This document shows, piece by piece, positions 11,659 through 34,635 of a stretch of DNA of 34,635 nt; the first letter of the stretch is position 1; each line of letters opens with the position of its first letter. The position numbers were made by a program, and so were the translations under genes. Source of the stretch: Tulasnella sp. 424 (lineage: Eukaryota; Basidiomycota; Agaricomycetes; Cantharellales; Tulasnellaceae); NCBI GenBank assembly GCA_019633425.1, contig WSUB01000286.1, positions 1-34,635 on the forward strand, read 5' to 3'. The notes below the pieces were generated by a model. It was not told where the DNA came from, ran no database searches, and saw nothing but the letters and a program-made list of their open reading frames with translations.

Positions 11659-14600
11659 ATGGACATCTCGCTCTCTGTCCCAACGACCGTCAAGTCGGTC
11701 GCGTTCACCGGTCTCAGCGCACAAGACATCCGCCGAATTTCAGTCAAGCAAATCACGAACCCTCAGCTACTAGATGACTTAAACAGACCAACAGAAGGCG
11801 GCTTATATGATCCTGCCTTGGGACCACTTAACAAACACGATTTGTAGGCTTTCAATTGCGTGAACCACTGGAGCTCATGGTATCGCTAACAGAGAGCGTA
11901 TTTAGGTGCGGAACGTGTCGAATGAACAGTTTCACTTGCCCCGGTCATTTCGGGCATATCGAGCTTCCGTCTCCGCTCTTTCACCCACTGTACTTCGCCG
12001 ACATGTTCCGCCTGCTCGGCTGCGTCTGCATGTTCTGCCATCAGTTCAAGGCAGGAAAGTTGGCGGTGAGTCCGATTCCCCTTCTGCTATCTTACACCGC
12101 TTGATACCGATTGCTGCCCAGGTATCGAAATGCATCGCCCAGTTGCGACTTCTAGACCACGGTCTCATCGACGCGGCCGAAGCTGTCGAGGATGTCGTCA
12201 GCTCAGCACCAGGGAAGAAGTTGAAGCTGGACCTTGTCGACGACGAAGATGAGGAAGGAGAAATTGCAGGCACAGGAGATCCCAACGCGGTAGCAAAAGC
12301 TCTCGATAAATACGTTAAGCACCAGCTACGACGCGCCTCGGGCAGCAGGAGGGACGACTATCACGATTCCGTGGTGTACAACACACGAAAAGCCGTCATC
12401 AAAGCATTCTTGTACCTCAAGAACACCCGCTGCAAGTATTGCTCTGCGTGCGTGGCAGGCCGTCCTTGGAAAACCCCGAGGGTCGCTGACGAGTCGCGCA
12501 ATCCAGGAAAGCATACATGTTCCGAAAGGAAACCTACACCAAGCTCATCGAGTACGACCTCCCTCAAAAAGGCAAAGATACCAACACCATTTTGGGCGCT
12601 AAGCGACCAAACGTCCTCGCCAGTTCAACTACCCAGCACGACGAAAGTCAGCGAGACGAGGACGGAGACGACGAGATGAACTCTGAATCGGAGGAAGGGG
12701 AGGACATTCAGAACAGCGACGGTTCGGATTCCGACGACGATGAATCGAAAACGAGGAAGTCAAAGAAGGATGGCAAAATTCAAGGGGGGCCAGCAATCGA
12801 CTATCAAGGACGTGTCAAAGGGCCACGCGGGCGGAGTGAAAGACTCATCGTGCCCGAGGAAGCTCGCGCCCACATCCGTCGCCTATTCGAAAACGAGCAT
12901 ATCTTATGTGGTTTGATCTTTGGCCCTCACGGATCCCTCGCACCTATCGACGGCCTCGGCGTCTCTCCAGCCTCTGCAGACATGTTCTTCGTGGAGGTGG
13001 TCGCGATTCCACCATGTCGTTTCCGCCCACCCGCAGAACGGATGGGCCAGCTCATGGAACACCCTCAAAACACGCAGCTGGGCAAAGTTCTTAACTCCAC
13101 GTACACGGTGCGGGACTTGAACAAGCAGCTCAGGGAGTTGTCCGACAAGAACTCGAAGCTCGAGCGGATCCCGTTACCAAAAGAGCGAGACACCCTCATC
13201 CAGAAGCTGATCAACCAGCTGGTCCAGCTCCAAGTCGAGTATAACGTCTTCGTGGATAGTAGCAAAGCCCCTTCGCAAAACTTGAAAGGCTCGGTCCTTG
13301 CCCCAGGTGTGAAGAATATACTGGAGAAGAAAGCGGGGTTGTTCAGGAAGAACATGATGGGCAAGCGGGTCAACTACGCTGCTCGTTCCGTCATCTCTCC
13401 CGACGTCAACATCGAATCCAACGAAATCGGTATCCCTCCTGTCTTCGCCAGAAAGCTCACATTCCCCGAGCCTGTCACTCAGCATAACGTCCATCTTATG
13501 CGGCAGTTGGTCATCAACGGCCCTAAGAATTACCCCGGTGCAAATATGGTGCAGTACGAAGATGGCTCCATTCAGTCATTGGTACGTCTCCTTGTAAAAA
13601 TGGTTCGTCGCTTGTTAATAACGACATGGATGATCAGGAACGCATGACCCAAGAGCAACGGATCGCTTTGGCAAACCAGCTCTTGACGCCCCAAGAAGGA
13701 AAGAAAGCCGTGTTCGCTCAGGCTCATACGCTTTCCACGCGAACCATTGCCGTGCCGAAGAAAGTCTATCGGCATTTGCAAAGCGGCGACCAGCTTATTC
13801 TGAATCGTCAGCCAACGTTACATAAGCCAAGTATGATGGTTCACAAGGCCCGAGTGCTGAAAGGGGAAAAGACCATTAGGATGCACTACGCGAACTGGTT
13901 CGTTCATTCTCATCCAGTATTCCCGACTTCCTTCTGACGCTTTGACAATCTAGCAATTCCTACAATGGTACAGTGCGCCGTCGTCCAGGCTTGCGCTCTT
14001 GTGAACTGACATAATCTCCTCTACCCTTTAGCGGACTTTGACGGTGATGAGATGAATATCCATTTCCCTCGTATGTGCGAAGCATCGCCACAGGAGCCCG
14101 AGTCTGATGAATTTTTCTGTAGAGACGCAAGTCTCCCGCGCGGAGGCGAGGTTTATTGCAAGCACGGATAACCAATACCTCGTCCCAACCTCTGGAAACC
14201 CGCTCCGCGGTTTGATCCAAGATCATGTCGTTGCCGGCGTATGGATGACCTACAAGGAAACCTTCTTCACTCGCGAGGAGTATCAGCAGCTACTCTATGG
14301 TGCATTGAAACCTGAAGACAATTACACTGGCGGTGGAAGGATCCACACTGTCCCACCAGCGATCTGGAAACCAAAGCCGTTATGGACCGGGAAACAAATC
14401 GTAAGTTCCGTGCCAGTTCTTGGAGACAGTCCTCCTGATATCCGAACGTCACGAAGATCTCCACAATCATGAAGAACATCACACCCGAGACCGCAGCCGG
14501 CATGCACCTCTTCTCCCAATCCAAGATCCTTAACAGCCACTGGGGTCGTTACGCGTACACCAAGGATGTCAAGTTCAAGGACGGCTCGAAGATGACCATG

Positions 14601-29765: not shown

Positions 29766-31481
29766 ATGTCAGAACAACCCGGCTCAGCTACTGCCCCAAC
29801 AGCTAAACCACCAATAACGGACAATAGTCTTGTTCAGCAGCAAGCGCCAGATGCTACCGGACCAGCGATAACCGACGCGAAAGGTTCCCTCTGGGATAGC
29901 TTGACAGCGGGCAAGTGAGAGGAGTGATCACTTTCGGCCGTTCAAAGACTTACCAACGTGCCCTTAGCCCATATTTCTCAGCCGGTTTCGGCTTAATGGT
30001 GCGTGTTCTAGGACTTCCTAAATCAAGTTAGTCTGACTGATCTAGGCATTCAAAGGCCGTCGGTGTCGGTTTAGGTTTCCTTCGTCAAGGAGGCCTGGCA
30101 CTAGCAAACCTAGCGCAGCGTCGACTCGTCGTATCGCTTGAAGTCCCATCACGAGATGCCGCCTACCCGTGGTTTCTTCAGTGGATAGCCATGGAATCCA
30201 ACCGTAAAGCTGCTGCTGGAGGCCCGCCTTCACTTCGGCTTTGGAGTAACGCTTTAAGCGTGGAGACGTCGTACAAAAAGCACCTTAATGGCAGTGCAGA
30301 CGTGCTATTTAGTGTGGTTCCTGGCGTTGGAACTCATTTGTTCCGGTTCCGTGGAGCCTGGATGCAGGTTCGTTTTCGAGAACGTTTTGCCGGGACATCT
30401 GCCATCTAACGTTCTCCCAACCTCCAGCTGAAACGAGAGCGACAAACCCAAATGATGCCTGGACCTGTCGACGGTCGTCCCTTTGAGACCCTCAGCATTA
30501 CGACTCTCGCCAGAGACAAACACCTTTTCCCCGTTCTCCTTGAGGAAGCAAGACAGCTATATTCCGAAGCCGAACAAGGCGCTATGGTTGTTCACACTGC
30601 GATGGGAACAACTTGGCAGCGGTTCGGTCCGCCACGAACGAAACGAGACCTTCATAGCGTGATATTGGATGATGGGGTCGCGGAGCGGATTGAAAAGGAT
30701 ATCAAAGCCTTCATGCATCGGTCCCGATGGTATCGCGAAAGAGGTAATCCCCTAGAGATCAACTACCTCATTTTTGGTCAATTTTGACCGAATTCTTTCA
30801 ATTTGGTGTTTCTAGGCCTGCCGTATCGTCGGGGATACTTGCTACACGGACCTCCTGGAAGTGGGAAATCTTCGTTCATTCAAGCGCTGGCCGCTTCACT
30901 CAACTACGATCTTGCGATCATGAATCTATCACAACGCGGAATGATGGACGACAAACTTAATCATTTGCTTCTCAACGCCCCTGGTCGAAGCTTCATTCTC
31001 TTGGAAGACATTGACGCTGCATTCAACAAACGTGTCCAGAGTTCATCAGACGGGTATGGCTCTCATTTTTTCTGACGATGCTTCTCTTACCGATTCTGCT
31101 CAATCTAGCTACCAGTCCGGAGTCACATTTTCTGGATTGTTGAATGCTCTTGACGGCGTAGCGTCTGCCGAGGAGCGGATCCTCTTCATGACAACTAACC
31201 ACCTGGAACGCCTCGATCCTGCCCTCATTCGTCCCGGTCGCATCGACGTAACGGAACTCATCGACGATGCCTCCCCATCCCAAGCACGGAAACTCTTCCT
31301 TCGCTTCTATGCTGGAGAGCGAGATGAAGCAGGGTTGGAAAGTGATGCCAACGAAATTGCTCAACTGGTGCAGGAGAATGCAGTCGAAGGTCGACGCATT
31401 AGTATGGCGGCTCTCCAGGGGCATTTCATCCGACATCCCATTGACACCGTGGTCCAGTCTAAGAACGAGTTGTTCCCTTAA
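29766..31481 (+). CDS. BCS1: Mitochondrial AAA chaperone BCS1
   Basis: BCS1 inserts the Rieske Fe-S protein into respiratory complex III at the inner membrane. Six exons: 29766-29914, 29968-29998, 30056-30367, 30428-30743, 30816-31053 and 31109-31481, giving 472 residues. A membrane segment lies near residues 50-75 ([11 protein letters not shown], then [13 protein letters not shown]). A BCS1-specific domain follows ([20 protein letters not shown]), then the AAA domain: Walker [10 protein letters not shown] (Gly281-Ser289), Walker [12 protein letters not shown] (329-339), sensor [10 protein letters not shown] and arginine-finger region ALIRPGRID. Exon 2 is only 31 nt. I chose the acceptor at 30055 (CAAAG) because it keeps frame into [10 protein letters not shown]. 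The N-terminus is a disordered Pro/Thr/Gln stretch without a basic presequence, as expected for the internal-signal import of BCS1. Confidence 0.93.
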
Positions 31482-31940
31482 TTTCCAGGTTTCCTTCGTT
31501 CATTCTTCTGGATTCTTCTGGCCTCCTCGCCCTATCTCACATTTTCGTACTCAGATATATATCTCGGGTAGCGGCTTCTAGTTTCGATTTCTATGGGACG
31601 ACATGTCCGTCCAAATCACGGAGTTAAACGCGTTCGATTGGAACTGACGAAAGTGGGAACATCTGTTCAACCCATTCCAATTGGCGCATCATTCGGCCAT
31701 CCCTACCTTGGACTACGTTTGACGGTTGCGAGACATCAGCATTTCTTGTTGATGATGGCCATATAAGACTCGCGCTTCACAGGAACCGACGCCCTCCAAC
31801 AGCAATTCCCACAAGCTACTCATTCTCGTATCAAGTACAACTTCAAGCAAAACACACAAACACATAGATAAATTCTCAGCGGAGATGACAATCTCCGATA
31901 CTTCGACATAAACATCATAGGTTGACCGTTCCACACCATT
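31482..31940. other. Intergenic: BCS1 3' flank and start of the duplicated segment
   Basis: The stretch separates the convergent stops of BCS1 and of the first CaaX peptide gene. From about 31728 the sequence belongs to repeat copy 1. No further gene was found. Confidence 0.5.
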
Positions 31941-32190
31941 CTACATGATGAGGCACTGGCCCTGGCCAGTATTTCCTCCGTCGTCATAGGCTACGAAGAT
32001 CGCCGTGTCACCTGAAATGCATCACCGAGTAGGCGAGCCCGTCTCAGTAAAGACAAAACAGCATCGAGAGCATCAGATATACCTCACCTTCGTCATCGTG
32101 GTGAATGCCCTTTTCATTGGCTTCACAGATCGGGATTTCTCCGAGTGCGACGGTCCTGGATTCGATTCCCTTGTTCTCGGTATAAGGCAT
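31941..32190 (-). CDS. CaaX-ending small protein, putative lipopeptide mating-pheromone precursor, copy 1
   Basis: Two exons, 32190-32088 and 32011-31941, flank a 76-nt GTGAGG...CAG intron and encode 57 residues. The start MPYTENKG is the only ATG in frame after the TATA-like site. The protein ends in CLIM, a CaaX box (Cys54, two aliphatic residues, Met) for farnesylation, end cleavage and methylation. The stretch before the Cys (YDDGGNTGQGQ) is Gly-rich, as in mature basidiomycete pheromones. There is no signal peptide, which fits export by a Ste6-type transporter. Without splicing the frame stops soon after the donor. A paralogue with the same structure lies 1.66 kb away. The CaaX gene is well supported; the pheromone role is inferred, since no STE3 receptor is in the window. 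Confidence 0.7.
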
Positions 32191-32287
32191 GGCTTGTGAT
32201 AATTTAACTTGTTGAGGAAGAGGATTGGGTTCGGAGAAGACTTCGAATAAGAATTGAAGTTGATGGAAGACCAGCCCGTCATTCTCC

Positions 32288-32302
32288 TGCTCTTTATATG
32301 CA
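32288..32302 (-). promoter_or_regulatory. TATA-like box of CaaX peptide gene 1
   Basis: The minus strand reads GCATATAAAGAGCAG about 100 nt upstream of the ATG at 32190. The same element and surroundings are conserved in copy 2. Confidence 0.5.
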
Positions 32303-33019
32303 TCCCCAGCAGAGCCAACGGAAGACTCCGTAGCCTATGTCTCAAAACGACATATCAGCTGCTTAATCATTCGGAAGAGGAAAAGGTATGGGCGTGATAC
32401 GATCCACCCCCTGTGGTCGTCGCTCCCTGCCAATCTCCGAGTCCGAGCAAGCTGTTCGGAGACAAAAATAGAGACTCAAGATATCTGGGAGAGACAATCC
32501 ACGTCCGCAACGTAAGCGGATCTGCCTGGTCAGTGCTTTGGGCGGCCCTCCGTTTGTGGCTTATCTCGCATGCCGCTTGATCAGGAACCAAAGTGACCGG
32601 TCATCGCGTTAAACAGCTCCCTATATGTTCAAACAGTCGCATAAATTAGCGTATTTTAGAGCAACGTAAAGCCGCCGAGGACTTGCTCCCACCGAGAGAA
32701 CGACGATTTTATTCGTCAGCATGGAAGCAGATGTGTAGTGTCTAAAGATGAACAGCTTGGAAGAATATTGCGTAGACGCTACCTGTGATCCCAGCGACCT
32801 ACTTCGCGAGGTCAATAACAGGATATGTAAAGGGAACAGTGAGATACCCGAGGTTCTAGATCGGAACGGGAGTGGGCGGGTGAGCCGCCGTTTGACGTCT
32901 CGGGCAATACCGAGGCCGAGCATACCTCCAGTTGGTAAAAATCTGTCTGCTTTGCAATTCGGTAAAGCTCGTCTCCCCCGTTGACAAGATCAAATTTCCT
33001 GGTTAGGCTGACGATTCAA

Positions 33020-33291
33020 GTCAGGTGGACTTGCCCCATGATGCAAACGGGCCATGAGACACACCGAGCAGTGTGCGGATTCAAAGGGCTGATGAAGATG
33101 TGAAAGACCTGCCTGACGCACGGACGAGACGTAAGCTTTGATATCGTCGGCTTTCATGCGGCCCAACTTACTCGACATCTAAAAACAGCATATTGGTCTG
33201 CTCATCGAACGCTAAGCAAAAGTTTAAGCGCTCGGCTTCCACCGGTTAACACTACATGTTTGTTGCTCACCAACAGATTTGACGTCGAGCT
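33020..33291 (-). pseudogene. Possible remnant of a spliced gene, perhaps F-box-protein-like
   Basis: On the minus strand three open segments join with canonical splice sites: up to 33271 (LRIELDVKSV; donor GTGAGC), 33211-33172 (AFDEQTNMLFLDVE; donor GTAAGT), and from 33112 down (QVFHIFISPLNPHTARC) to a stop near 33020. The alternation of hydrophobic strands ending in a PHTA motif resembles the C-terminal part of many Agaricomycete F-box proteins. The 5' side meets the boundary of repeat copy 2 within about 100 bp, so the gene would be truncated. Support is weak: no domain could be confirmed. Confidence 0.25.
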
Positions 33292-33601
33292 CGATCCTAA
33301 GGCTCACTATTCTGTACCATCCGAGAGTTGGCAGGAAAAAAGATCGCTCGTTCGCAAAGTAAACTTTGGCAAGAGTTGAAATCGCGCTGCGAGACATCAG
33401 CATTTCTTGTTGACGATGGCCATATAAGACTCGCGCTTCACAGGAACCAACGCCCTCCGACAGCAATTTCCACAAGTTACTCATTCTCGTATCAGGTACA
33501 AATTCAAGCAAGATACACAAACACATAGATAAATTCTCAATGGAGATGCCAATCTCCGATATTTCAACATAAACATCACACGTTGATCGTTCTACACCAT
33601 T

Positions 33602-33845
33602 TTACATGATGAGGCAGTTGCCGCCGGAAGAATCACCACCGTCGTAGTCTACGAAGATCGCCGAGGCACCTGAGATGCATCACCGAGTAGGCGAGTCCGT
33701 CTCAGTAAAGACAAAACAGCATCGAGATCATCAAATATACCTCACCTTCGTCATCATAGTGAGTACCCTTTTCATTAGCTTCACAGATCGGGATTTCTCC
33801 GACTGCGACGGTCTGGGATTCGATTTCGATGTTGGTATGAGGCAT
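33602..33845 (-). CDS. CaaX-ending small protein, putative lipopeptide mating-pheromone precursor, copy 2
   Basis: Two exons, 33845-33746 and 33669-33602, with a 76-nt intron at the same place as in copy 1, encode 55 residues. The N-terminal part is conserved with copy 1 (both share GEIPICEANEKG). The end is again the CaaX box CLIM with Cys52, but the preceding stretch (YDGGDSSGGN) is different and one residue shorter. One codon is also missing near the start (MPHTNIEIES against MPYTENKGIES). Both splice sites, the stop and the CaaX are intact, so both copies look functional. The pheromone interpretation and its limits are as for copy 1; another kind of prenylated small protein cannot be excluded. 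Confidence 0.7.
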
Positions 33846-33872
33846 GGCTTGTGATAATTGAACTTGGTGAGG

Positions 33873-34106
33873 CTCGAAACCAGAAAGGTTTTACTGTGAG
33901 GCTGTTATAAAACATTCTGGTGCAATGGAGGAAAATCCAAGTGGCTCTGTAATCCGGAAGTTTACTGTTATTTATTTACAGGATTTTGCAACACATTCCC
34001 GGGTGCACACCCCAGATCCCGGAATGTTTTATTCCTGTCTCACAGGGAAAAGGGATTTTTTCCCAGATTTTCCGTTAAAGTTTCCCATTCGCGAGCTTCA
34101 CAGTGT
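33873..34106. mobile_element. 234-bp insertion in the leader of peptide gene 2 (MITE-like or remnant)
   Basis: The segment is absent from copy 1, where GAGGAAGAGG stands at this point. Its ends carry imperfect inverted sequences: CTGTGAGGCT on the left and, read on the other strand, CTGTGAAGCT on the right. An internal near-palindrome (CATTCCCGGG with CCCGGAATG) follows. GAGG is present on both sides, but copy 1 already has two GAGG, so a target-site duplication cannot be claimed. There is no coding capacity. It lies between the TATA-like box and the ATG of gene 2. Confidence 0.45.
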
Positions 34107-34178
34107 AGAGGATTGGGTTGAGGGAAGACTTCGAATAAGAATTGAAGTTGATGGAAGACCAGCTTGTCATTCTCCTGC

Positions 34179-34192
34179 TCTTTATATGCAAT
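34179..34192 (-). promoter_or_regulatory. TATA-like box of CaaX peptide gene 2
   Basis: The minus strand reads TTGCATATAAAGAG, identical in its core to the copy 1 element. It lies about 340 nt upstream of the ATG at 33845, or about 100 nt once the 234-bp insertion is subtracted. Confidence 0.45.
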
Positions 34193-34635
34193 CGCAGCAG
34201 AGCTAACGGAAAACTCCGTAACCTATGTCTCGAACGACATGTCAGCTGCTTAATCATTCGGAGGAGGAAAAGGTACAGGTGTGATGCGATCCACCCCCTG
34301 TGGTCGCCGCTCCCTGCCAATCTCCGAGTTCGAGCAAGCTGTTCGGAGACAAAAATTGAGACTCAAGATATATGGGAGAGACAATCCACGTCCGCAGCGT
34401 AAGCGGATCTGCCTGGTCAGTGCTTTGGGGGGCCCTCCGTTTGTGGCTTATCTCGCATGCCGCTTGACCAGGAACCAAAGTGACAGGTCATCGCGTTAAA
34501 CAGCTCCCTATATTTCAAACAGCTTGATGAAATAGTGTATTTCGGAGCAACGGAAAGTCGCCGAGGACTTGCTGCCACCGAGAGAACGATAATTTGTTGT
34601 CCGTCACCATGAAAGCAGATGGATAGTGTCCAAAC

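Follow-up and report, generated by a model that had tools for sequence, protein, structure and literature searches.

Two short genes at the right end of a contig of Tulasnella sp. 424 encode peptides that end in a CaaX box, which raises the question of whether they specify pheromone precursors and, if so, whether these belong to the B (P/R) mating-type locus or to a set of non-mating-type pheromones. The window analysed here is the whole contig, 34,635 bases in length. A sequence-only reading of it had described the pair as hidden, spliced genes for putative mating-pheromone precursors and had named both options. With modest confidence, the second is preferred: the two genes, A and B, form a tandem duplicate pair, and their products are probably farnesylated, secreted, pheromone-like lipopeptides of a non-mating-type rather than a B-locus kind.

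Gene structure

Both genes lie on the minus strand and comprise two exons. Exon 1 of gene A (32088–32190, with the ATG at 32190) contributes 34 codons and one nucleotide, and exon 2 (31941–32011) terminates in FVAYDDGGNTGQGQCLIM followed by the stop codon. The corresponding exons of gene B occupy 33746–33845 (ATG at 33845; 33 codons and one nucleotide) and 33602–33669, the latter terminating in FVDYDGGDSSGGNCLIM before the stop codon. The predicted GT–AG introns (32012–32087 in gene A and 33670–33745 in gene B) are found at the same place and share their length (76 nt), phase (1) and ends (GTGAGG...CAG). The resulting proteins of 57 (gene A) and 55 (gene B) residues both end in CLIM after a glycine-rich stretch. 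The two-exon arrangement had been described exactly so in the sequence-only reading, but the genes are not hidden as it had supposed: proteins identical to those of genes A and B, with the same splice, are already deposited as hypothetical proteins of Tulasnella sp. 424 (P0003, FRC04_006101, and P0001, FRC04_006102, respectively). Other ORFs of the window encode RNA polymerase Rpb1 domain 2 (12517–13647) and a BCS1-type AAA lid domain (31011–31481), both of them housekeeping neighbours.

A TATA-like element, assigned by consensus match only, is located at 32293–32298 (minus strand); it precedes the gene A start codon by 108 nt, and its conserved counterpart in gene B is 341 nt from the ATG because of a 234 bp insertion. 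ACAAWGG, a pheromone-response-like motif, does not occur in the 1000 nt upstream of gene A or in the 790 nt between gene B and the contig end. Upstream of the two canonical precursors of this genome described below, it occurs once in the 1000 nt of that on contig C257 and is absent from the 922 nt of that on contig C14.

Tandem duplication and divergence

Genes A and B each occupy one copy of a duplication of ∼1 kb. Unit 1 (31727–32747) extends from ∼0.2 kb downstream of gene A to ∼0.55 kb upstream of it, and unit 2 (33388–34635) contains gene B. The alignment of unit 2 to unit 1 reaches the last base of the contig, which thus ends inside the repeat, and the assembly probably broke there owing to the repeat.

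Identity between the units is 88% in exon 1, 78% in exon 2, 95% in the intron, 92% in the upstream flank (500 nt, with the insertion left out) and 92% in the downstream flank (214 nt). The exons have diverged more than the noncoding sequence (27 of 168 versus 63 of 788 positions differ; Fisher p = 0.002). Divergence is further raised in the glycine-rich stretch preceding the CaaX cysteine, where the two genes agree at 19 of 30 aligned nucleotides (63%; 11 differences, Cys codon included; Fisher p = 2 × 10−5), a segment that was picked after viewing the alignment and for which homogenized flanks would give the same picture. The exons differ by two indels, each of a single codon; the flanks also show single-base indels. 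The overall dN/dS between the genes is 0.76, the number of changes within individual regions being too small for a claim of selection. The exon 1 core GEIPICEANEKG carries two synonymous and no nonsynonymous differences. Synonymous as well as nonsynonymous changes are raised before the cysteine, and therefore only rapid change, and not positive selection, is claimed for this stretch.

The insertion (33873–34106) interrupts the gene B 5′ leader and has no counterpart in gene A. Its inverted repeats and its recurrence in the assembly, in five near-full-length copies on five contigs including this one, mark it as a MITE-like element; the four other copies are 87–98% identical, and the end facing gene B does not have the last bases present in them. 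Taken together, the duplication, the whole-codon exon indels and the retention of the core and of CLIM in a third paralog argue that genes A and B are genuine and represent more than a chance occurrence of reading frames.

Paralogs and database relatives

The third paralog, P0002 (FRC04_009461), is also from Tulasnella sp. 424. The core GEIPICEANEKG is invariant across the three proteins, and the expectation that homologs would keep the CaaX box was borne out, CLIM closing all three full-length paralogs. In the protein database P0002 is placed on a contig of 4557 bases, which is consistent with further copies of the unit, and P0001 and P0003 are assigned to two contigs each, the longest being of 74,866 bases. 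The genome assembly contains only two copies of the unit.

A homolog search with the gene B protein alone returned two proteins from two candidates. With an alignment of the three paralogs, four of 12 candidates were kept, namely the three Tulasnella sp. 424 proteins and P0004, a 48-residue ORF in a 601-base record, apparently exon 1 continuing into the intron. The protein searches found relatives of the CLIM peptides only inside their own family, and a PDB search with the alignment gave no matches. The literature matches listed for Tulasnella mating type, pheromone or STE3 included nothing on mating in this genus, and none of those listed concerned the CLIM-peptide family.

STE3 receptors and canonical precursors in the genome

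STE3-type receptors gave 15 matches in the assembly, none of them on the 34.6 kb contig that carries the pair, in agreement with the earlier observation that the window holds no receptor. Grouped by position, the matches correspond to five genes on four contigs of 110–305 kb: one each on C399, C391 and C257 and two on C47. The two genes on C47 (95–102 kb) are arranged in tandem and are ∼75% identical over 1.8 kb, with no recognizable precursor in the 30 kb scanned around them. Over 2.7 kb, the receptor regions C391:1–10000 and C399:1–10000 share ∼90% identity. The two contigs start in a common repeat, which in C399 is tandemly arranged with a unit of ∼0.9 kb and 96% identity; these regions could result from a recent duplication or derive from two haplotypes.

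A canonical precursor, beginning with MDNF and ending in PVDTDKPGGGYTYYCVIV, is encoded on the plus strand of C257 at a distance of 536 bp from the receptor match (42169–43365, minus strand). It scores 24.4 bits against the pheromone family PF08015, above the cut-off of 22. Rhizoctonia, whose Mfa pheromone gene is considered below, belongs to the same order as Tulasnella, the Cantharellales. A second canonical precursor, starting with MDAF and terminating in PVDADKADSRYTYYCTIA (MDAF...YTYYCTIA), is located on the minus strand of C14 at ∼38950–39078 and scores 18.2 bits, below the cut-off. As C14 is a 141 kb contig with no STE3 match, receptor-free precursors do occur in this genome. No further canonical precursor was recognizable in the receptor flanks that were scanned (C47 80–110 kb, the first 20 kb of C399 and of C391, and C257 30–60 kb), a scan that intron-split precursors could escape; four of the five STE3 genes are thus left with no recognizable canonical precursor in these flanks.

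Across the whole assembly PF08015 was matched at three places (E ≤ 10), none of them in the window. The C14 place, with 15.8 bits in this search, turned out to be the canonical precursor described above, while one on C425 (17.6 bits) has no CaaX-ended candidate in the surrounding 2 kb. The wider list of CaaX candidates was judged by eye. In the scans of the receptor flanks, MDxF ORFs lacking a CaaX end were dropped, and among seven entries that passed a filter, two on C47 and one at C257:35447 were discarded by eye as unlike precursors.

Resemblance to pheromone precursors

Met at the X position of a CaaX box favors farnesyl, and CLIM in all three paralogs is predicted to be a box fitting farnesylation. 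A Met in this position is found in none of 17 yardstick precursors, which amount to 16 different sequences, most of them retrieved by way of others in the set. All 17 begin with MDxF, and none of the three CLIM peptides does. The CLIM peptides also do not match PF08015 (0/3) or any other Pfam family at E ≤ 10; of seven yardstick precursors, all were listed by PF08015 and three exceeded the cut-off, the C14 sequence having itself been found through this family. The characterization as mating-pheromone precursors holds in part: the CaaX-ended glycine-rich architecture, the tandem copies, CLIM in the third homolog and a VDxD motif as in canonical precursors speak for it, and the absence of MDxF and PF08015 from all three proteins speaks against it.

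The motif, VDYD, precedes the cysteine by 12–13 residues in the gene B protein and P0002 and is represented by VAYD in the gene A protein; the two canonical precursors of the same genome have VDTD or VDAD at position −13. VDx[DE] at 11–17 residues before Cys is present in three of five Rhizopogon precursors taken from the available text of PMC5473757. It also occurs in seven of ten proteins retrieved with the canonical precursors and in none of 998 background cysteines, the latter drawn from the window and receptor regions, in six-frame stop-to-stop ORFs of at least 100 residues, many of which are not genes. Since the motif was noticed after viewing the alignments, this test is post hoc. The retrieval itself, with seven canonical queries, gave ten of 397 candidates, of which four are named as Rhizopogon vinicolor and one is partial; as one of the ten is an input sequence, they do not constitute independent yardsticks. 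A profile comparison in which no motif was supplied aligned the CLIM peptides with the seven canonical precursors such that VDYD stands opposite VDxD and the cysteines coincide (p = 0.015, with a probability of only 3%). Against the two Tulasnella canonical precursors alone, the CLIM profile gave a four-residue match of VDYD on VDTD (E = 0.28).

Each CLIM peptide has four or five glycines in the 12 residues before the cysteine. The charged pairs ER, EH and DK are absent from positions 10–15 before Cys in these peptides, a difference from the charged pairs of the precursors in the available text of PMC8305134, and a DE pair lies ∼20 residues before it. Similarly, the precursors in the accessible part of PMC8686365 have a Glu ∼10 residues upstream of the CaaX box, where the CLIM peptides have an Asp. 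An exon of the carboxyl methyltransferase ICMT was found in the genome, but the family also matches in five of 14 control genomes and so this proves little.

Proposed function

With no receptor gene on the contig of the pair, a non-mating-type set is the likely assignment, and of the two options originally named it is this one that fits better. The CLIM peptides are probably a lineage-specific, tandemly amplified, farnesylated and glycine-rich set of this type. In the proposed route, the CLIM cysteine would be farnesylated, LIM removed and the cysteine carboxymethylated. Cleavage in the vicinity of the acidic VDYD motif would take off the N-terminal part of the precursor, yielding a glycine-rich peptide of ∼11–13 residues with the lipidated cysteine at its end, which might be exported via a Ste6-like transporter and read by an STE3-type receptor. 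We infer transcription, splicing, prenylation, cleavage and export of the CLIM peptides, and a receptor for them.

The foremost alternative is that the products are small intracellular farnesylated proteins, with exon 1 as the working part and the glycine-rich stretch as a loose linker to the membrane anchor, as in the variable region of Ras. The invariance of the core among the three paralogs, with only synonymous differences between A and B, would suit a working part, the variable region would be just this linker, and the lack of a PF08015 match agrees. However, VDxD is placed as in the canonical precursors of the same genome, the CLIM proteins have no known domain, and both their size and their glycine-rich tail match those of precursors, which makes an intracellular role unlikely. 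The restriction of relatives to their own family and the absence of PDB matches are neutral in this respect.

The pair could also be B (P/R) pheromones that determine mating type, the receptor then lying in an unassembled array just past the point where the contig stops on the right. The termination of the contig within the repeat is compatible with this, as are the third copy on a 4557-base contig, the 74,866-base record that also carries the pair, the four STE3 genes with no recognizable canonical precursor in the scanned flanks and the location of the receptors within ∼15 kb of a contig end in three of the four receptor contigs. On the other hand, the receptor match on C257 has a precursor of the canonical MDxF type ∼0.5 kb away, and in Rhizoctonia the Mfa pheromone gene adjoins a receptor gene, according to the available text of PMC7884421. 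Moreover, an attempt to link the window end to the four receptor regions by shared sequence gave only one 18-base match (E = 0.92), attributable to chance, and three similar pro-regions with a single CaaX box resemble an amplified set and not divergent B specificities. Membership of a B cluster, as entertained in the sequence-only reading, appears unlikely. That the genes are decaying duplicates or untranslated models, as the faster divergence of the exons and the MITE in the gene B leader might suggest, is highly improbable given that the exon indels are of whole codons only, the splice sites and stop codons are intact and CLIM is kept in three copies.

A broader and distinctly more tentative proposal is that basidiomycete lipopeptide signals include a second structural class, represented by the CLIM peptides, that is intron-split, with an MPHT-type start, no MDxF and a CLIM end, and tandemly amplified in Tulasnella, the fast-changing glycine-rich mature peptides of which might serve orphan STE3 receptors in self-recognition or symbiosis and not in mating. 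A family with neither an MDxF start nor a Pfam match would be missed by the usual searches, with the possible result that signals of this sort are undercounted. The CLIM peptides A and B (with P0002) and the two canonical precursors can be set against five receptor genes in this genome, a small catalog by which the question of peptide–receptor pairing becomes directly testable.

Comparison with known systems

The C-terminus of Ras-type proteins consists of a hypervariable region and a CaaX box. The variable linker before the farnesylation box is a similarity to the CLIM proteins, which differ in having no Pfam domain and a whole length of only 55–57 residues. The canonical PF08015 precursors on C257 and C14 are likewise short and CaaX-ended with VDxD at −13 (12–13 residues in the CLIM peptides), but are encoded by single-exon genes, start with MDxF, carry DK at the motif, have YTYYC ahead of the aaX residues and match PF08015.

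Two kinds of CaaX precursor are distinguished for Agaricomycetes in the available texts of PMC8305134 and PMC4101180: divergent B-locus pheromones and more similar, glycine-rich non-mating-type sets. The non-mating-type peptides of A. bisporus are glycine-rich, of ∼11–13 residues, and their linkage to mating type is absent or loose; their precursors resemble the CLIM pair in length (44–54 residues), CaaX end, glycine-rich mature part and the existence of several similar copies (PMC8305134, as far as available). The pair shares with such sets the lack of a linked receptor on its contig. The C. cinerea consensus GGGSGNGAYC has GGSGN in common with P0002, a short, composition-biased likeness. In the portion of PMC8970355 available, CaaX hits far from STE3 genes were thrown out as false positives, a criterion under which genes A and B would also be lost.

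The non-mating-type precursors described in these texts start with MDS/AF or MDA/DF and contain internal charged pairs, whereas the CLIM pair starts with MPHT or MPYT, has an intron within the coding part, ends in CLIM and does not match PF08015. By its start, its coding-part intron and its CaaX box the pair departs from both known kinds of precursor; rather than a proven member of either, it may be a variant that works in the manner of the non-mating-type peptides.
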